IMG/VR virus record: IMGVR_UViG_3300030222_000011 | Location: 1 to 42,773 of that record | Origin: a virus | Strand: one strand, 5' to 3' | Length of the DNA: 42,773 nt | Shown here: positions 1,381 through 42,136 of the stretch, one piece after another | How the letters are laid out: every line of letters begins with the position of its first letter | Position numbering within the stretch: position 1 is the first letter of the stretch | Position numbers and translations under genes: made by a program | The notes under the pieces: model-generated | Seen by the model: only the letters and a program-made list of their open reading frames with translations | What the model was told of the DNA's origin: nothing | Database searches by the model: none

Positions 1381-2028
1381 TCATCCTGGCGCGCTATCGA
1401 TTTCGATCAGCCGTTCGTCTGAGAGCGGCCGCTGCAGCGCCGACGCCTCCTCCCATGGCGCATTGAGCCAGGTGTCAATCTCGTCCGGCTCGGTAAGGAT
1501 CACCGGCATCGCCTTTTGGTGGATCGGCCCGACAACGCCGTTTGGCTCGGTGGTCAGAAAGCCGAAAAGGTCGACGCTGATCTCCCCCTCCTTGAGCTTG
1601 CGCACGCCGGTCCATCGGGTCCACACGCCGGCGAAGACGAACAGGGGCCGCGCGTCAGACAGCGCGAACCAGTGATTGCGGATCCGCCCTGTTTCCGGAT
1701 CCTTGTCGCGGCCCGGCTCGGCGAAGGCGTTCGCCGGCACGACGCAACGGCTGGCCGGCCCCAGCCAGCGGCGCCAATGCGGCGAGGCCGTGTTGCGGAC
1801 GTTGGTGACGCCCCGGTCGACCTTCTTTCCCTTCAGCGCGAACTGGGGCGAAGGCATGCCCCAACGGGCCATGACGATTTCGGCGCCATCATCTCCCTTG
1901 CGCACTACCGGCGCTTCATAGTCCGGATAGATGTTGCCGGCGGGCACATTGCCGGCCGCATTGGTCATGGCACGGCTGAGCTCGAGGATGGCGGCCGGTC
2001 CGGCCGACAAGTTGTAGAGGTTGCACAT
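1381..2028 (-). CDS. SOS response-associated peptidase (SRAP, YedK/HMCES family)
   Basis: SRAP proteins cross-link through Cys2 to abasic sites in single-stranded DNA and shield them. The sequence begins MCNLYN, placing Cys2 directly behind the removable initiator Met. Family blocks follow in order: RWGMP near residue 55, TNVRNT (75-80), RCVVPANAF with Glu104, and IHQKAMPVIL with His170 as the presumed catalytic His. At 215 residues it has normal family length. No strong ribosome-binding site is visible, but the Cys2 requirement fixes the start at 2028. Phage-borne copies exist, so it may be host or prophage cargo. Confidence 0.9.
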   Translation of the reverse strand: MCNLYNLSAGPAAILELSRAMTNAAGNVPAGNIYPDYEAPVVRKGDDGAEIVMARWGMPSPQFALKGKKVDRGVTNVRNTASPHWRRWLGPASRCVVPANAFAEPGRDKDPETGRIRNHWFALSDARPLFVFAGVWTRWTGVRKLKEGEISVDLFGFLTTEPNGVVGPIHQKAMPVILTEPDEIDTWLNAPWEEASALQRPLSDERLIEIDSAPG

Positions 2029-2088
2029 GGCGCAAACGTGCCCAACCGGGCGGAACCGTCAAGACCCACCAGTCAGCGCAGAAATTTT

Positions 2089-2116
2089 TTGTATCGTCGC
2101 CCAGTCGAAATATGCT
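2089..2116 (+). promoter_or_regulatory. Possible promoter of the secreted-protein gene
   Basis: TTGTAT at 2089-2094 and TATGCT at 2111-2116 are 16 bp apart in an AT-rich stretch just before the gene starting at 2153, giving a leader of about 30 nt that carries the GGAGG. The hexamers are imperfect, so this is suggestive only. Confidence 0.35.
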
Positions 2117-2152
2117 AAGATTGAAAACGTAGAAAGTTTTCTGGAGGACATC

Positions 2153-3223
2153 ATGAAGCGTTTCATAGCACTCTTGATTGCCTTTTCACCCACTATAGGC
2201 TTTGCTCAAGAATTAGACCATTGCGTCGCAGTTTATGAAACCGCAACTAGGAATTTACAGATATCGGAAGCCTCCTACAGTAGTTTGAATACCGTCTTTG
2301 ATCAATACTGTGAATCTAACGGTGAATTCAAAGATAGCGCAAAATCAGGCGGCCTTGAGGCTGTCATAAAATCGGTTCCGATTTCGCTCTCCGGAAATGC
2401 GTCATCTATAGAAGAACGTTTCCAGAATTTTTGCAGCAATTATTCCGGTATCAGATACAATAGTGCTGCGTCCCGAGCCCTTGCGGATACCGTCGTGGTC
2501 GATGCATTGAACGCGTTCAACAATTGCATCGAAATAAGCTCTCGTGGCGTAATTATAAGTCATTCCTCTCCCACGGGTCTTGACGGAACATTCAATTTCA
2601 CTTTTCGAGCAAATATCAATTATGAACTTCAAGGGGTACAAGAGGGAAGGAACATTGAATGTGAGATTAGAGACCCTCTTGACGGAAAGATGATTCAAGC
2701 GGATACGAGCACTACTCTGAAATTTGACAAGCCATTTAGTGCATTTTGTAAACGAAAACCGGAAGGTAGTCCTTCTGGTAAATTTTTCCCAAGAACTAGT
2801 GTTGTATTCGCTTCAAATCAAGGAAACTATTCTGTGTTGTATCCTGCAGAGGAAGTGTTAGATGTGGAATTTGCCTCCGTCTTGGACAGACGAATAAGTA
2901 ATGCGGAAGATCGTTTAATTGCCTTATCTAACAACCTAGAAACCAACATAGTGAAGCTTGAGGAGCGAGTGAATGACGTTTCTTCCGCTTCGAGCGCATT
3001 GGTGAGCGAGCTTCGGACCGCAATTGATTTCAAAGTCTTTAAAGTCCTAAGGGCCGATAGCCAGCCTGGGGAACGCGACTACGCACATGTGGGATGCGCC
3101 GACCCTACGGCATGGGTCCAGAGCCAGTGTCCAGGATACTCCGTTGAAATGATTGTACTTAGTAGTCGTTCGGGCGGTCATTGCGGCTTCACTCACTATC
3201 TGGGTATCTGTAAAAGAAAGTAA
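2153..3223 (+). CDS. AT-rich accessory gene: secreted protein with coiled coil and Cys-containing C-terminus
   Basis: The start at 2153 has GGAGG upstream and gives a clean Sec signal peptide (MKRFIALLIAFSPTIGFA, then QE). The product is 356 aa. The mature protein has an N-terminal domain with several cysteines, a middle beta-rich domain, a coiled-coil stretch around residues 245-300, and a C-terminal domain with spaced Cys (VGCADPTAW, SQCPGY, GHCGFTH, GICKRK). The tail may bind a ligand or surface structure. The region is much richer in A/T than its neighbours, a sign of recent transfer. I do not recognise the family. Cargo exported to the periplasm or cell surface is the most that can be said. 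Confidence 0.75.
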   Translation: MKRFIALLIAFSPTIGFAQELDHCVAVYETATRNLQISEASYSSLNTVFDQYCESNGEFKDSAKSGGLEAVIKSVPISLSGNASSIEERFQNFCSNYSGIRYNSAASRALADTVVVDALNAFNNCIEISSRGVIISHSSPTGLDGTFNFTFRANINYELQGVQEGRNIECEIRDPLDGKMIQADTSTTLKFDKPFSAFCKRKPEGSPSGKFFPRTSVVFASNQGNYSVLYPAEEVLDVEFASVLDRRISNAEDRLIALSNNLETNIVKLEERVNDVSSASSALVSELRTAIDFKVFKVLRADSQPGERDYAHVGCADPTAWVQSQCPGYSVEMIVLSSRSGGHCGFTHYLGICKRK

Positions 3224-3672
3224 CGTTCTTTTCACATGACCACAGATTGACTTTCGAAGAGTTCAGAGAACCCACAATTGGTTAGGCGTGTGGCTACGAA
3301 CATGCGCTTGACCTTCCGATACAGGTCTTGGTGCGTTTTTTGGGTTGTTCTCGTTGCACTCGTCATCGAATTCTCTAGCAATCTAGGATGCGGAAAAAGA
3401 CGAAAGCAATTGCGGTCAGGTCAGGGGTTGTCGTTCTTGAACCGGTCTGACCGGAACGGACCAATGCGGAAAAATTCTGTGCAACCATCAGTTCGGATTG
3501 CATACCATTTTGGCAAGTTTGACCTTCCGAAGCGAGCATTTGTGCAACACGTAGCATCGAGTATTTTGGGTTCGGAGCCGCATATCGCGGCGAACACCAT
3601 GAAGATCCGCATAGGGCCAAGAACATCCCAGCGGCTCTTCGCATCTTCGTTCTGAAACTGCAAACGCGGCCG
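3224..3672. other. Gene-free stretch
   Basis: About 450 bp of intermediate base composition between the AT-rich secreted-protein gene and the small cysteine protein. Open frames exist on both strands, but none has a convincing start, ribosome-binding site or recognisable protein character. No tRNA-like structure is visible. It may contain the left prophage junction, but no att repeat can be recognised without the right end. Confidence 0.4.
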
Positions 3673-35091: not shown

Positions 35092-36690
35092 TCACACGCT
35101 CCCTGGCGGTAGGGGCGCGGCGTCCTGCAGGCTCTTCCAGTCCACCCGATGCAGGACGGTCCGGTCGCCATAGGGCCGGTCATCGGCGCCATCGGCCGCC
35201 AGTTCCCAGACCAGCCAGCATGTGTTCATCTGGCTCGATGCGCGGGCGCCGGCCCATCCCTCGCGATGCATCATCGGCAGGCGGCGCGTGAAGACGTGGA
35301 TCCGGGCCGGCGGCCATGTCTCGAGGAAGAAGGTGCGGTCGGCATCGTCGCAGCCCGCCAGCACGTTCAGATTGCACAGCATCGCCATCTTCGGCGGGCG
35401 GAACATCTCCAGCGCGTGCCGGATGAACCGGTTCATCGCCTCGCCATAGGGCGGATTTGTAATGATGTCGGCGCCCAGCCCGTCCGGATTGCCGTTGTCG
35501 GCGCCCATGAAGGCGTGGTCGGCCAGCCAGCCCCGGTCGGTGTCGAGGAAATCGACCGTCGCCTGGACCTCGCCATGCCGGTCGGCGCAGCCGCGGTCGC
35601 GCAGGTCCGACAGGATGACGTCGTAGCCGGCCGCCTCCAGCGGGCCAGAGATCGCGCCGAGCCCGCAGGCCGGCTCCCAGACCACCGGGCCGAACCGCTC
35701 ATGCGCGAGCAGCGCGCCGATCGCCTCGGCCGGGGTCTGGTAGAAATTGTCGCCGCGTTCATCGCGCGAGGCCGAGCGCGTGCCGATCGCGGCGCGCAGG
35801 CTGGCGCGCGTCGGTTCCTGCCCCTCGTCGAGCCGGGCGCGGATGGCCCGCTCTGCCAGCCCCGGCTCAGCCCGTTCGGCGTCGCGCAGCGCCCGCGCCT
35901 CGGCCAGGCGCTGTTTGGCGATCCGGAAATCATCAAGGTGCAAAAGGTCCGCGCCGGGGACCGTTTCCGCATTGTCGTTCTGGGCCTTCGGCCGCCCGCC
36001 CTTGGAGATCAGCCCGGCCGCCTGCCCGGCATCGATCAGATCGGCGATGGCGATCTGCACCTCGGCCTCAATCAGGAGCGCCTCGCCCTGCAGCACATGC
36101 GCCTTGCGGAGCAGCTGCTCGGAGGCCTCAAAGCGCTTTGCATAGGCGGTCGCCTGGCGGGCCGTGTCGTAGGCGCGCGCGGACAGAAGGCGCGCCGCCT
36201 CCAGATCGCCGTCGCCGCCGGCGCCGCGCGCGGCATTGACGGTTCGGAACAGGGCGTTGAGCGCGCCCTGCAGTTCGTGCGCCTCGGTTTCGATGCGCCG
36301 AAGTTCCGCCTCGGTCAGCGCGCCGTCGGCATGGGCGTCGGTGATCGCGGCGATCACATCGGCATGTTCGCGCGCCAGGCCGGCAATGGCGCCGAGCGGC
36401 CCCGCCTCGTCGCGGCCACCGGCCTGAGATGTGGCCGGACGGAGCCGGTAGCCCTCGAGCCGCGCCAGCGCGCGCAGCAGCACCGGCTCGCCGGCATCGC
36501 GATCGAGATCGAGCGCGACATCGAGCGGTACATGCATGTCGGCATGGTCGCGGCTGCCATAACGCGACAGCGCAGCCTTGTTGACGCGGGTGATGTGCTG
36601 GGCGCTTTCGCCACCGCCGCAGGCCCGCACCGCATGACGCAATGCCGCCTTCAGTTCGGCCCGGTCATGGTCGGATGAGGGGCGGGTCAT
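35092..36690 (-). CDS. CII-like regulator fused to adenine-N6 DNA methyltransferase
   Basis: 532 aa in three parts. Residues 1-85 resemble the phage regulatory protein CII family (LKAALRHAVRACGG, VPLDVALDLDRDAGEPVLLR). Residues 160-300 are helical with ISKGGRPKAQNDN and LDDFRIAKQRLAEARALRD, a pattern seen in phage DUF3102/ParB-like proteins. Residues 310-532 are an amino-methyltransferase: FYQTPAEA, motif I VWEPACGLGAI (337-347) and motif IV NPPY (412-415). Presumably DNA adenine methylation linked to a DNA-binding head. ATG 36690 has AGGGG upstream, from a REP-like element. Confidence 0.75.
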   Translation of the reverse strand: MTRPSSDHDRAELKAALRHAVRACGGGESAQHITRVNKAALSRYGSRDHADMHVPLDVALDLDRDAGEPVLLRALARLEGYRLRPATSQAGGRDEAGPLGAIAGLAREHADVIAAITDAHADGALTEAELRRIETEAHELQGALNALFRTVNAARGAGGDGDLEAARLLSARAYDTARQATAYAKRFEASEQLLRKAHVLQGEALLIEAEVQIAIADLIDAGQAAGLISKGGRPKAQNDNAETVPGADLLHLDDFRIAKQRLAEARALRDAERAEPGLAERAIRARLDEGQEPTRASLRAAIGTRSASRDERGDNFYQTPAEAIGALLAHERFGPVVWEPACGLGAISGPLEAAGYDVILSDLRDRGCADRHGEVQATVDFLDTDRGWLADHAFMGADNGNPDGLGADIITNPPYGEAMNRFIRHALEMFRPPKMAMLCNLNVLAGCDDADRTFFLETWPPARIHVFTRRLPMMHREGWAGARASSQMNTCWLVWELAADGADDRPYGDRTVLHRVDWKSLQDAAPLPPGSV

Positions 36691-37364: not shown

Positions 37365-37436
37365 GCGTACATTTGTACGCTTTGTCAAGCGACAACGTTC
37401 CGCTTTAACGCTGAAAGGCTACGTACGATAGTACGC
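37365..37436. promoter_or_regulatory. Divergent immunity control region: two operators and two promoters
   Basis: O1 is GCGTACA-TT-TGTACGC (37365-37380) and O2 is ACGTAC-GATA-GTACGC (37421-37436). For the minus-strand early operon the -35 is a perfect TTGACA (37388 to 37383) directly before O1, so repressor at O1 blocks it. For the repressor gene TACGAT (37424-37429) lies inside O2 and 9 nt before ATG 37439, which implies a nearly leaderless message and autorepression. The same operator motif recurs at 41748-41792. Confidence 0.8.
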
Positions 37437-37438
37437 AG

Positions 37439-38113
37439 ATGACCATAAACCCTGTTCATGAGCGCATTCAGGAGCGGCTTGACGCGTTGGCAATCAGCCC
37501 GCAGCGCGCTTCTCTGGATGCTGGCTTGAGCAAGGACTACCTGCGATCTCTACTCAGCCGCCCGGACAGCTCGCCAAGGAGCGATGCACTGCAGAAGTTG
37601 GCCGTCGTGCTTCGCACAACGCCGCAATGGCTGCTGACCGGTAACGAATTGCCTGGCTCGGGCGGCGCCTTGCTCGAGCCGCCCGGAGTGCCAGTCGACC
37701 TGCCGATGCCGTCGGGGCGAGATTTGCCGGTCTTCGGACTTGCGGCCGGTTCGGGGACGGGCGCGCTGACCATGACCAGCGAGCCCGTCGAATACATCCC
37801 CTGCCCGCCGGGCCTCGCCCGGGTGCGCGACGCCTATGCGCTGATCGTTACCGGCAGTTCAATGGAACCCCGATACGAGGCCGGCGACGTGGTGTTCCTG
37901 AACCCGCACCGGCCGCCGCGCCAGGGCGACCATGTCGTCATCCAGGAAGCGCGGGAGGGCGGCACGATCGTCACCATCAAGCGGTTCGAGCGATGGGTCG
38001 ACGATGCACTGATCACCACGCAGTACTCCCCGCTCCGCGAAGTGCGGTTTGCCCGCGACCAGGTAGTTGCCGTGCATCGCGTGCTGACGACGAATGAGCT
38101 GCTTCTGGCATGA
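37439..38113 (+). CDS. Prophage repressor, LexA/CI-type (HTH + S24 autoprotease)
   Basis: 224 aa. Residues 5-65 form a helix-turn-helix (DAGLSKDYLRSLLSRPDSSP). The C-terminal half is an S24 peptidase: Ala103-Gly104 in LAAGSGTG is the likely self-cleavage bond, Ser141 in GSSMEPRYEAGD the nucleophile and Lys181 in VTIKRFE the base. RecA-stimulated cleavage should induce the prophage. No ribosome-binding site precedes ATG 37439, which stands 2 nt after operator O2, so translation is probably leaderless, as for lambda cI. Confidence 0.88.
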   Translation: MTINPVHERIQERLDALAISPQRASLDAGLSKDYLRSLLSRPDSSPRSDALQKLAVVLRTTPQWLLTGNELPGSGGALLEPPGVPVDLPMPSGRDLPVFGLAAGSGTGALTMTSEPVEYIPCPPGLARVRDAYALIVTGSSMEPRYEAGDVVFLNPHRPPRQGDHVVIQEAREGGTIVTIKRFERWVDDALITTQYSPLREVRFARDQVVAVHRVLTTNELLLA

Positions 38114-38169
38114 ACCGCCATCGCATCAAATCAGGTATCTAGCCACCTGAGTTCAACACTTGACAGGTG

Positions 38170-38856
38170 TCAGATCTTCGACAACTTTTCTCGAAGCTCT
38201 TCTGGCTTAACATTTCCCTGCTTCCATTCCTCAATGAGATGCAACAACGCTCCTATTCGTACCCTGAATCTATTTCTCAAAAGAAAGTTCGTAAGATATT
38301 CACCCTCTGAAATTCGTTTTAGATCCTCACTCACATTTATATCTTTTGCAAAAGAATCGGACTTAGATCGAACCAAATTTTTTGTGGCTCTAAACTTCAT
38401 ACAAGCAACTATTGTGTGGCGCACGGGATCAAGAAAAAGACTTAGCAATCGGGCAAGCGACGCCGCAATCAAGCCACCAATGAAAATCAGTACACTTCTG
38501 ATCTCCGGACTTCCCAGCCATCCACCCCCAATACTAGCTTCATATTTTACAACTGAGAGCTCGCCGCTATTCGATATCACCAACGCTCCAGTCGAAGCAT
38601 AATCCCTAAGGCGTGCTTCGTACAACGTGCAACTGTCAATGGTCTTCACTTCCTCAAACTCCGAAGTCACGGCACCATAAACAATGAACTGCGGGAGAAT
38701 TGAATCTTGGCATGAAATGAATTGCATTCTTATAGAATCACCAGACTTGCGAAACTGGACTGCATAGGCCCCGTCAGTTACCTTTGCGACAGATACACTT
38801 GTTTGAAGAAAAAACAAGAATGAAATTAATAGTACTTTTGTGTTAACTCGCGACAT
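38170..38856 (-). CDS. Membrane partner of the ATPase: periplasmic domain, membrane helix, cytoplasmic domain
   Basis: 228 aa, AT-rich. An N-terminal hydrophobic segment (about 7-24) is a signal peptide or first span. A periplasmic domain of about 95 residues with Cys50 and Cys76 follows. A strong helix (121-143, SVLIFIGGLIAASLARLLSL) leads to a charged cytoplasmic domain of about 85 residues ending EELREKLSKI. The start lies 31 nt inside the end of the ATPase gene; GGAGG stands 13 nt before ATG 38856. Operon overlap and topology suggest a membrane effector or sensor working with the ATPase. No known family recognised. Confidence 0.7.
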   Translation of the reverse strand: MSRVNTKVLLISFLFFLQTSVSVAKVTDGAYAVQFRKSGDSIRMQFISCQDSILPQFIVYGAVTSEFEEVKTIDSCTLYEARLRDYASTGALVISNSGELSVVKYEASIGGGWLGSPEIRSVLIFIGGLIAASLARLLSLFLDPVRHTIVACMKFRATKNLVRSKSDSFAKDINVSEDLKRISEGEYLTNFLLRNRFRVRIGALLHLIEEWKQGNVKPEELREKLSKI

Positions 38857-41021
38857 GGCGCAAACAAATCCTCCAACTTTGCGGCAAAGAGAGCTCGGAT
38901 TCGTCGCTCCACTTCGGCGTTCAAATACGTAAGCTCCGCACTACCTCTAGTTGAGTTTCTTACAGCTTGGATCTCCTCTCTAATTGTCGAGGTTGGCGGC
39001 TCAGACTGGTAGTACTTAGCACCCACGGCCTCAAGTCTCCTATAAACATTCGGCCACGTCTTCTTTTCAAAAACGAGCATTTCCTCAATCAAGATGGCAA
39101 ACATGAATGTCTGTCGACCTTTATCCTCCAAAATCTTCTGCAGACAGCTCCCGTAGTCTTCCTCATCGAATACCAAATATGAATAATCGGGATCCCTATA
39201 ATCAAAGTGGGACAACAAATCTGAAGGAAAAAGAACCTTCCAATCGTCAACACATAGCTGCAAATACTTAAACGAATCAGCAAGTTTATCAAGTAGAAAC
39301 TCACCCCTTTCGGTAATCTCGATGTGCTTTATGTAGCCGATCGAGCCTGATGATCCTTCCGCACCGACATCAACTGAAATCAACTCCGAGGTCGGCACTT
39401 CAAAGAGGCTGCTCAATATATACCGCACCAATGATTCGGAGTAGCCGCGGCCATTCCTTCCACAGAATACTCGAATTATATCGCCATCTGTTGTGAGGAT
39501 ATCCTTTCGAGCTTTCAAATAGGCAAGAATTAGCTTCTTAAGCCAGATTGTGTAAAGATGGTTGTCCTTGAAATCAGAGGGCACTCCAACTTCTTTACTT
39601 GGCGACGGCGCATTAATGAGATAGATATTTGGTACATTGCCAGAAAATTGCGTATATCTACGCCGACCAGCAAGCATGTAAGCAAGCATGGATGGGTAAT
39701 ACTGTTGCGTAAATCTCGAATTCAGATCTGATTTCTGCCCATCAAGAAATTCGAGCCACGAGAATTCGGCTATTTGATTGATCATATCTCTAAGCCCTTT
39801 TCGGCTTAGGCTCCATAGATCATCGAGAAGTGCCTGCCCAGGACCAGACCTCTGCTGATAGAGCTCTCTAAGCCTTCGGATCTGTTTCAGAAACTCGTCC
39901 TGCTTGGCAGCCTCCTTGACTGTGTTAGCGAGTTCTTCAAGTAGATCGAAACGCCTGCCAACCACCTCCTTGGCCCTCGATAGCTCAGGAGGCGCCAAGG
40001 TGAATAGACGCTCCTCAACACCCTCCAGAGGAACCTCATGATGCTGAGAAATCAAGAAGGCTATCGTGTCTTCGCGACATGCAAAGAGGACCGGGATTCC
40101 CAACCGCGACGAACTTCGGTCAGTCTGAAGCCAGAACATCTTGATGATCTCGACGATAGTCGCATGAGCACGACGAACCTGCTCTCGCTCCGGGTGTTGA
40201 TCACCACCTTCCGCAAAGAAGCCGCGGTCACCTAAGTGATAGAGGAAGTCAATATTATCTATGATTAGGAATACGCGCATAGCGTGTCTCTGGTGCAGCA
40301 AGCTGGTCAGATGAGCCAAGTTGGCGTCGATTTCTGATCGATCTGCCTCTCTTGGCAACCTACAGTCACGAGCCAACCGCTCAATCTGATCTCCGTTGAG
40401 AACACTATTATTCTTAAGAGTAGAGATAATACTTCGCTTTACGATTTCTAGTACCTCAAGGTCATCGGGTATGCCGTGATTGGCGCTAACGTCAAGATTG
40501 ACTTTTACAGGGACATATCCGTCCTTCTTGAGGCGAGAGATCTGTCTACAGATGAAATTACAGATGAAGGTTGTCTTTCCAATTCCAACTCGACCAATAA
40601 GAAAGCTCAGTAAGTTTTGGCCTTCGTAAGAACCGTGTGGTATTAGGCGGTCATACAACTCGTCATATGAAAGCGTAGGGTTATCATAGAGCTGACCTTG
40701 GTGAATTGTCGGCTCCATATAGTAATGACGATGATGATGGAACAGCCGAGAAACATGTTCCGGGTTTCCAGCGTCAACAGTGTTAGCCGCAATAAATTCA
40801 AAGTTTGCAGTGTCGTGATGAGAAAATACCGATTTCAGCATCGAGACAAACTGTGCGTCGTCGCTGTGAAACTTCTTTGCATTTCGAATGAAGGACTTAT
40901 GTGAACTTGTTTCCACACGACTAAACAGCTTCTTATTCTGAAAGCTTACAGCGTTTGATAAATCTCTAGCGAAGCTCTGTGGATCAATCATCGTATCATT
41001 TACTCGGCGAGATTGCGACAT
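38826..41021 (-). CDS. Large P-loop (AAA/STAND-like) ATPase of a cargo module
   Basis: 731 aa from ATG 41021 (a TTG lies 12 nt earlier; ATG 40991 also possible). An N-terminal domain of about 130 residues precedes Walker A GRVGIGKTT (143-151) and Walker B VFLIIDNIDF (250-259). PVLFACRED (310-318) is in the place of a sensor motif. The C-terminal 400 residues are helical with winged-helix-like segments (about 440-530) and no enzyme motif. Strong A/T bias and position between repressor and second operator mark it as lysogenic cargo. ATPase plus membrane partner resembles phage defence pairs, but the exact family is not recognised. Confidence 0.8.
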   Translation of the reverse strand: MSQSRRVNDTMIDPQSFARDLSNAVSFQNKKLFSRVETSSHKSFIRNAKKFHSDDAQFVSMLKSVFSHHDTANFEFIAANTVDAGNPEHVSRLFHHHRHYYMEPTIHQGQLYDNPTLSYDELYDRLIPHGSYEGQNLLSFLIGRVGIGKTTFICNFICRQISRLKKDGYVPVKVNLDVSANHGIPDDLEVLEIVKRSIISTLKNNSVLNGDQIERLARDCRLPREADRSEIDANLAHLTSLLHQRHAMRVFLIIDNIDFLYHLGDRGFFAEGGDQHPEREQVRRAHATIVEIIKMFWLQTDRSSSRLGIPVLFACREDTIAFLISQHHEVPLEGVEERLFTLAPPELSRAKEVVGRRFDLLEELANTVKEAAKQDEFLKQIRRLRELYQQRSGPGQALLDDLWSLSRKGLRDMINQIAEFSWLEFLDGQKSDLNSRFTQQYYPSMLAYMLAGRRRYTQFSGNVPNIYLINAPSPSKEVGVPSDFKDNHLYTIWLKKLILAYLKARKDILTTDGDIIRVFCGRNGRGYSESLVRYILSSLFEVPTSELISVDVGAEGSSGSIGYIKHIEITERGEFLLDKLADSFKYLQLCVDDWKVLFPSDLLSHFDYRDPDYSYLVFDEEDYGSCLQKILEDKGRQTFMFAILIEEMLVFEKKTWPNVYRRLEAVGAKYYQSEPPTSTIREEIQAVRNSTRGSAELTYLNAEVERRIRALFAAKLEDLFAPCRELTQKYY

Positions 41022-41171
41022 TTTGTTTGTCAAGATGGCTATATCACTGATGTTGAGTCAATGCTTGGAGCGGCCTCCACGTGGTAAGGTTCTTTAGACA
41101 GCAAGCATGCGATACGCGAGCATCAGTGAGACTTTCTGGACCGGGACTGCGGCGGTAGCTGTTCACTTGCG

Positions 41172-41387
41172 TCACTCAGGCAGATGAGACCATAGCGTCT
41201 TGAGGCCGTCATAGGCGCCCTGCTCCTGCTGCATGCAGGCGCGGTCCATCGTCGCCGAATAGGTCCCGCCGAAGCTGGCGACCGCCTCGCAGTGCTGCTC
41301 GACGTCGGAGCGTGGAATGACCGGTTCGGCGTGGGCGGCATTCGCGGCGACCAGCAGGGCAGCAAGCAGCGCCGGGACGATCCTCAT
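41172..41387 (-). CDS. Small secreted protein (71 aa)
   Basis: Signal peptide MRIVPALLAALLVAANAAHA, then a mature part of about 50 residues with two Cys (EQHCEAVASF, DRACMQQEQG), possibly a disulfide. The start overlaps the preceding stop (ATGA). Second gene of a two-gene minus operon beginning near operator O3. Function unknown. Confidence 0.65.
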   Translation of the reverse strand: MRIVPALLAALLVAANAAHAEPVIPRSDVEQHCEAVASFGGTYSATMDRACMQQEQGAYDGLKTLWSHLPE

Positions 41388-41680
41388 GGCTCCCGGTCCT
41401 CCGTGATCAGGACCTTCTGGCCACGGGTCAGGAGGACGAAGAGGCCGAGGATGACGGCGCCCGCCATCCAGAAGCCGACGATCATGCCCGAGGCGATTGT
41501 GGCACCGATCGCGGCGCCGGTTTGCTCATATTCATTCGTGAGGCCGGCGGACCTCTCGCCGATGCTCACCCAGTAGCCGATCAGCCAGGCCGCCATCAGC
41601 AGGTTGAACCCGATGAAGATCCATTTGAACAGGTGGCCGAAGAAGCCACGCTTGCGCACCTCGCGCTGAATCACCGTCAT
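41384..41680 (-). CDS. Two-span membrane protein (98 aa)
   Basis: GGAGG lies 7 nt before ATG 41680 (MTVIQREVRKRGFFG). Two hydrophobic stretches (about 17-37 and 61-83; WIFIGFNLLMAAWLIGYWV, ASGMIVGFWMAGAVILGLFV) flank a polar loop with SIGERSAG. Arg/Lys-rich N-terminus. Transcribed from the region of operator O3, so it may be under repressor control or expressed in the lysogen. A DUF of small phage membrane proteins is possible but not recognised. Confidence 0.6.
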   Translation of the reverse strand: MTVIQREVRKRGFFGHLFKWIFIGFNLLMAAWLIGYWVSIGERSAGLTNEYEQTGAAIGATIASGMIVGFWMAGAVILGLFVLLTRGQKVLITEDREP

Positions 41681-41747
41681 TGCCCCACCTCCCACCCCGG
41701 TTGGCTTCGTAACACAGCACTCCATCAAGCCCTTCAACTGAGCGCAA

Positions 41748-41800
41748 GCGTACTAATGTACGCCACGACGCTTGACACGTACATTTGTACGCCATACGGT
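41748..41800. promoter_or_regulatory. Second repressor-controlled promoter
   Basis: O3 is GCGTAC-TAAT-GTACGC (41748-41763), and O4 is ACGTACATTTGTACGC (41777-41792), almost identical to O1. O4 fills the spacer of an excellent promoter: TTGACA (41772-41777), 17 bp, TACGGT (41795-41800). Transcription goes rightward into the genes from 41870. The repressor of 37439 should therefore silence two distant early operons. Confidence 0.85.
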
Positions 41801-41869: not shown

Positions 41870-42136
41870 ATGATGATCCGCACCCGTCCTGTTCCTGCCC
41901 CAAGGGCCTGTCCTGAGCTTGTCGAAGGGCCACGCCCGCTTGGCTGCCGCCAACGCCTCGTCGAGACGATGGCGATGACCATGCGCGAGATGGCGTTCGC
42001 CGGCGAAACCGTCGACGCCGAGGCGCTGCGTCAGCGCGGCTTCACCGACGCCGCGATCGACAGGCTGGCGCCCGAGGCGATTGCCCGCGCCCGCCGCGAC
42101 GCCGTCCGCCAGATCGGCGCGGAGGCCGCGCGATGA
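41870..42136 (+). CDS. First gene of the rightward early operon (88 aa, REP segment inside)
   Basis: AAGGAG lies just before the double ATG (41870/41873). Residues 10-25 (PRACPELVEGPRPLG) are encoded by a known type of repeat unit (CCTGAGCTTGTCGAAGG at about 41911-41927). The C-terminal 55 residues are helical (MTMREMAFAGETVDAEALRQRGFTD-type) and may be the functional part. It follows promoter/operator O3-O4. Function unknown. Confidence 0.6.
   Translation: MMIRTRPVPAPRACPELVEGPRPLGCRQRLVETMAMTMREMAFAGETVDAEALRQRGFTDAAIDRLAPEAIARARRDAVRQIGAEAAR

Follow-up and report, generated by a model that had tools for sequence, protein, structure and literature searches.

What do two foreign-looking genes beside the repressor of a temperate phage do for the lysogen that carries them? 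The genes lie in the 42,773-base virus record IMGVR_UViG_3300030222_000011, which is taken here at its whole length as the window, and they encode a large P-loop ATPase and a small membrane protein. The original prediction read them as a possible new two-gene defence or exclusion system. Position, composition, and architecture make such a role plausible, and the pair is a well-bounded candidate of unproven function rather than a demonstrated system.

The phage with the pair is a temperate bacterial virus. Terminase, portal, major head, and tape-measure genes are present in the window according to PHROGs, and no integrase was seen among the 25 window ORFs scanned against PHROGs, several of which are shadow frames. 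There is no sign of circularity; the first and last 300 bases share a longest exact match of 8 nt. In the phage collection, Sinorhizobium phage phi2LM21 has the nearest terminase (58.8% identity over 90%), while in the viral contigs a 98% identical terminase is found in a single fragment (G001/L002), which represents a sister phage. The window also contains a minus-strand gene (35092-36690) in which a CII-like activator (PHROG 101) is fused to a DNA methyltransferase (PHROG 799), and the separate phi2LM21 genes p19 and p21 match its two halves.

The repressor is a CI-type protein (Table 1) whose helix-turn-helix is weak in Pfam and which matches a PHROG repressor family. After it come the convergent pair, two small ORFs on the minus strand that are rich in GC (41172-41387 and 41384-41683), and finally the second of two sets of operator-like motifs. 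With up to one mismatch allowed, the motif CGTACNNNNGTACG occurs only at the four sites listed in Table 1, all of them exact, against 0.63 sites expected by chance; four sites were reached in 1 of 100 shuffles. The second operator proposed for this region is thus borne out as a motif, and CI would be expected to bind these operator-like sequences.

Table 1. Positions of the gene pair and of neighbouring features in the window.
Feature	Position	Strand	Basis
Operator-like CGTACATTTGTACG (37366-37379) and CGTACGATAGTACG (37422-37435), before CI	37366-37435		motif scan
CI-type repressor carrying an S24 peptidase domain; converges with the pair	37439-38113	+	Pfam, PHROG
Probably acquired AT-rich segment: the pair plus roughly 115 bp of upstream sequence	38093-41137		two-state composition segmentation
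Hairpin around and beyond the stop codon of the pair, possible terminator before CI	38110-38180	-	z -2.75
Membrane protein (P0002), 228 aa	38170-38856	-	ORF list, hydropathy; low-confidence model
Overlap of ATPase and membrane-protein genes, 31 nt	38826-38856	-	ORF coordinates
P-loop ATPase (P0001), 731 aa	38826-41021	-	ORF list, motifs, near-threshold AAA_22
Walker B-type FLIIDNID, residues 251-258	40248-40271	-	sequence
Walker A GRVGIGKTT, residues 143-151	40569-40595	-	sequence
Second operator-like pair, CGTACTAATGTACG (41749-41762) and CGTACATTTGTACG (41778-41791)	41749-41791		motif scan

The pair has a far higher A/T content than the phage, as had been claimed. Its GC is 0.453 versus 0.679 for positions 3501-38113, and its codon-usage distances from the phage core genes are 0.73 and 0.81; CI lies at 0.26, the SRAP gene at 0.25, and the short GC-rich gene 41384-41683 at 0.44. 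The AT-rich segment that encloses the pair (log-likelihood gain 329) begins at the end of CI and stops some 115 bp upstream of the ATPase gene, so the pair seems to have brought its own upstream sequence. It is probably acquired prophage cargo. A trace of transposition was sought at the two edges of the segment, and no direct repeat is common to both. Upstream of the ATPase, at the segment edge, lies an inverted repeat, TCACTGATG (41044-41052) and CATCAGTGA (41121-41129), which is a possible regulator site or insertion trace. Taken whole, the region upstream of the ATPase folds no better than shuffles, no Rfam family was found in the window at the gathering threshold, and a promoter scan was uninformative (3 sites versus 3.9 expected).

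A second AT-rich block spans positions 2080-3664, with a GC of 0.45 over 2031-3400. Its plus-strand ORF (2021-3223) adjoins the SRAP gene and encodes a protein that looks exported, with a probable start at MKRFIALLI within the ORF. This protein has nothing above cut-off in Pfam or NCBIfam and no match in PADLOC (E<=1) or in phages (E<=0.1), and its gene is another acquired orphan in the window.

The two genes of the pair overlap on the minus strand, with the coordinates, strands, and lengths first proposed for them. The longest open run of the ATPase ORF, at 737 codons, is well outside chance, since 300 dinucleotide shuffles of positions 38114-41040 averaged 121.7 and never exceeded 237; an alternative TTG start at 41033 would give a protein of 735 aa. 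The 228-aa ORF is unremarkable by length alone under the dinucleotide-shuffle control and owes its credibility to its hydrophobic N-terminus, its membrane peak, the basic residues that follow, a GGAGGA 12 nt 5' of its ATG within the ATPase gene, and the 31-nt overlap. From this arrangement, translational coupling between the two genes is likely. The hairpin at the end of the pair is matched by equally good folding in 2 of 200 shuffles, has a weak U run in its tail, and is absent from the sites of the terminator scan; it may end the transcript of the pair.

The ATPase consists of an N-terminal region of about 130 aa, a core at about residues 130-460, and a C-terminal region (460-731) that, by eye, looks like a winged helix plus helices. 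The Walker A and Walker B motifs read from the sequence are present, and a further motif, LFACRED, begins at residue 312. The Walker A motif, the DNID Walker B, and the C-R at the sensor-1 place presumably put the protein, by eye, on the STAND/ORC side of P-loop ATPases. The core matches Pfam AAA_22 just below the cut-off (E 8.6e-6, 26.5 bits versus 27) and, more weakly, AAA_16 (E 0.00064, 20.7 bits, cut-off 32.6) and NACHT (E 0.061). The C-terminal part has no Pfam family at E<=10 and no NCBIfam family, although divergent repeats could escape detection. The STAND assignment in the original prediction is weakly supported: the core matches are sub-threshold or weak, and neither C-terminal superstructure-forming repeats nor a fused effector was found (Pfam at E<=10; NCBIfam).

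Other searches leave the ATPase similarly unplaced. No enzyme, toxin, repeat, or effector domain was detected with Pfam or NCBIfam; the sole Pfam match of the N-terminal region is to GH46 (E 0.0066), which was rejected together with LemA (E 0.056) as below cut-off. Against PADLOC 2.0.0, no model matches at full length, and the best, PDC-M01A (E 0.019), covers the Walker A stretch, as does the PHROG match to phrog_14719 of unknown function (E 1e-5), which is accompanied by two weaker matches. A housekeeping or metabolic ATPase, which would have counted against a defence role, was sought in Pfam, NCBIfam, and PDB sequences and not found, and the housekeeping reading is rejected in the absence of a matching profile. 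The single-sequence AlphaFold model of the ATPase (mean pLDDT 39.6) is too poor for reliance.

The membrane protein has a signal peptide at about residues 1-24, with plausible cleavage after SVA by eye. Its Kyte-Doolittle profile contains just this N-terminal hydrophobic segment and one transmembrane peak that spans residues 114-145, which suggests an exported domain at about 25-113, a helix within 114-145, and a basic cytoplasmic tail. The single-sequence AlphaFold model (mean pLDDT 50.5), again too poor for reliance, shows strands at first, followed by a long helix and further helices. A fold search with this model gave nothing at E<=0.001, and its immunoglobulin-like and butyrophilin matches were set aside. 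PADLOC 2.0.0 contains no full-length match, with only a partial one to Cas85f (E 0.076). Neither this protein nor the ATPase is named by NCBIfam or PDB sequences, and the earlier view that no named system is recognisable holds for both under PADLOC and NCBIfam models.

Within the loci sampled, the pair is seen in this phage alone. No relative of the ATPase was found in the viral, genome, phage, or plasmid collections; phages and plasmids were searched by tblastn at E 0.01 and E 10, and the viral and genome contigs were scanned with exact peptide patterns, which reach only close relatives. The ATPase is also absent from the 19 of 22 terminase-related virus records that were examined (all except L014, L017, and L021). 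At E 10, the phage search returned three weak matches (E 0.1, 3, and 4). The best of these, H37, aligns with residues 332-448 at 31.6% identity, with E 0.1 over the whole phage collection and E 3.9e-5 over the compared loci alone, and was rejected as chance, since it lies in a 326-aa frame that lacks a Walker motif and looks capsid-like by eye. Among the compared loci, the ATPase is matched only by the window and by L037, which was rejected. A winged-helix motif of related-looking ATPases gave 18 matches in the viral contigs, all rejected as frames of 14-81 aa that lack Walker A. For the membrane protein, no relative was found in viral contigs, phages, plasmids, or PDB sequences or in the 10 related loci tested. 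No paper listed in a limited full-text literature search, judged by its listing, describes a prophage system that couples an ATPase to a single-pass partner with an exported domain.

Eight loci with a related CI were compared (the sister as L032, plus L066-L072), and Pfam names cargo after CI in three of them. The sister, whose CI is 57% identical to that of the window, carries an unrelated VasI-family gene (E 1.8e-20), L071 an HSDR_N protein (E 2.5e-11), and L067 a protein with RTX and cadherin repeats. L068 has low-GC unnamed genes after CI (minimum 1-kb GC 0.44 versus 0.53 upstream). No clear cargo follows CI in the remaining four loci (L066, L069, L070, and L072); at that place L069 encodes an Arc-like regulator, and the Pfam search covered no protein of L070. 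GC falls after CI in L067, L068, and L071 and hardly in the sister (0.643 versus 0.691). The sister fragment spans the slot, which is bounded by CI on one side and by the counterpart of the 104-aa gene at 42133 on the other, and the pair is absent from it; no exact copy of the operator motif occurs in the 10.4 kb read. A genome-contig scan found no relative of the 42133 gene. Because related phages carry different genes after CI, the site appears to take exchangeable, sometimes alien, cargo.

The sister VasI-family (PF11319) protein, at L032:6462-7115 directly 3' of CI, belongs to a family named for type VI secretion and is apparently phage cargo. To our knowledge, neither VasI nor RTX/cadherin genes are defence genes. 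The stand-alone HSDR_N protein immediately 3' of CI in L071 (L071:8727-9785) is a candidate single-gene defence, and an account of phiLM21-like Sinorhizobium prophages names an HsdR-like gene as a potential defence participant (PMC12429752). A MmeI-type restriction gene in L040 was rejected as slot cargo; it lies beyond what looks by eye like an integrase gene and may be host DNA. Two small, similar-looking proteins with hydrophobic segments (NALYHT...RWNRWFNF, by eye) occur at L067:10084-10683 and L046:9803-10372, in the early regions of related phages, and have no Pfam or PADLOC match. At E<=0.01, PADLOC matched none of seven cargo-like proteins (six from CI slots and one from L046).

The closest published parallels are two-gene prophage systems that combine a cytosolic and a membrane protein. 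In lambda, an operator lies beyond rexAB, and RexB is a four-helix membrane protein. For RexA, the literature gives no more than a distant match to DUF4747, and a very remote relation to the ATPase is thus possible. RexAB of lambda and of Pseudomonas putida is described as a cytosolic and a membrane protein near the prophage repressor, with lambda rexAB just downstream of cI (PMC12894663). The pair resembles lambda RexAB and P. putida RexABpp as two linked genes by CI that encode a cytosolic and a membrane partner, and it has a RexAB-type location, beside CI with operator motifs on both sides. Unlike lambda rexAB, it is oriented opposite to CI, its cytosolic partner is a 731-aa P-loop ATPase, and its membrane partner has a signal peptide and one helix. 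RexAB proper is rejected: Pfam gives no DUF4747 match (whole ATPase at E<=1, parts at E<=10), and the Kyte-Doolittle profile of the 228-aa protein lacks the four-helix topology of RexB and of the CarolAnn and Sbash partners.

CarolAnn gp43/gp44 and Sbash gp31/gp30 likewise each unite a prophage-borne membrane protein with a second protein in the immunity region; the membrane proteins have four putative transmembrane domains, and their partners of 370-372 aa match DUF4747 weakly (PMC6426606). The pair is like both in its prophage setting and two-protein make-up and unlike both in its single-pass membrane protein and lack of a DUF4747 match. The same text gives the Sbash pair its own promoter in lysogeny (PMC6426606), so failing to share a transcript with CI does not count against the present pair. 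The pair also recalls STAND/AAA-type defence ATPases (AVAST and relatives) in its Walker A, Walker B-like DNID, and weak AAA_22, AAA_16, and NACHT matches, but differs from them in the lack of a full-length PADLOC match or a detected repeat or effector domain, and in its separate membrane partner. PARIS (AriA/AriB), described as a two-gene ATPase system on phage-related elements with AAA_15/AAA_21 and DUF4435 as its detection profiles (PMC9122126), is rejected, since Pfam gives no match of the pair to AAA_15, AAA_21, or DUF4435.

Of the original prediction, the foreign-looking cargo beside the repressor and the overlap of an ATPase gene with a membrane-protein gene both stand, and the defence role is what position, composition, and architecture suggest. 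The reading in which the pair is cargo in the CI-downstream accessory slot and protects the lysogen by exclusion or abortive infection has, in our judgement, about an even chance of being right. Such a two-part exclusion device is favoured for its position, its alien composition, the turnover of cargo there, and the published cases in which a cytosolic and a membrane protein occur together near a prophage repressor. Both proteins would be made in the lysogen, where the cytosolic ATPase would be kept inactive until an infection cue brought about its ATP-dependent change or oligomerisation. Docked on the basic cytoplasmic tail of its single-pass partner, it would signal through that tail, and the membrane protein would in turn disturb the envelope or keep the incoming genome from entering. 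Lysogenic expression, topology, physical interaction, the direction of signalling, and the protective effect are all putative parts of this scheme. Counted against a defence role are the lack of a seen homologue or co-occurrence and of a full-length PADLOC match, the single-pass topology, the convergence with CI, the four of eight relatives that lack clear cargo, and slot cargo that PADLOC does not match, along with the sister's GC that is not low, its divergent CI, and its lack of an exact operator.

The membrane protein might instead be the sensor of an envelope event, such as adsorption, DNA injection, or wall damage, with the ATPase as effector or transducer. One helix and an exported domain make this a serious rival: a single pass, an exported stretch of about 90 residues (strands in the low-confidence model), and a basic cytoplasmic tail are more receptor-like than a multi-pass pore. 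The poor model, the empty fold search, and an ATPase that lacks a detected enzyme or toxin domain speak against it, however, and we consider it unlikely. Rather doubtful, too, is a reading in which a new ATPase family and a single-pass envelope protein make up a two-gene prophage exclusion system, where the exported domain would read an envelope event during infection and the ATPase would turn it into shutdown or blocked DNA entry. The alien composition and accessory position suit any moron gene, and the second AT-rich block also encodes an exported-looking protein, so the pair could be lysogenic-conversion or host-fitness cargo that serves, say, the envelope or a stress response. Set against known conversion genes and published precedents, however, a large P-loop ATPase whose partner is a membrane protein by the repressor is nearer to exclusion systems, and this explanation also seems unlikely. 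A role in the phage cycle itself (replication, partition, or the lysogeny-lysis switch), with leftward expression from the second operators on induction, is improbable. The pair does share its strand with the ORFs at 41384-41683 and 41172-41387, lies downstream of them, and reads away from the second operator motifs, but a 150-nt gap and the border of the AT-rich block lie between it and these operator-proximal ORFs, its composition is alien, and it is missing from the sister fragment.

The orphan status of the pair makes it novel and bars a stronger claim. If the exclusion reading holds and the pair does exclude phages, a large P-loop ATPase whose partner crosses the membrane once and has an exported domain would join the few two-part prophage systems at the repressor side, and the CI-downstream slot of these phages, whose relatives are known from alphaproteobacteria, would be a place to find more.
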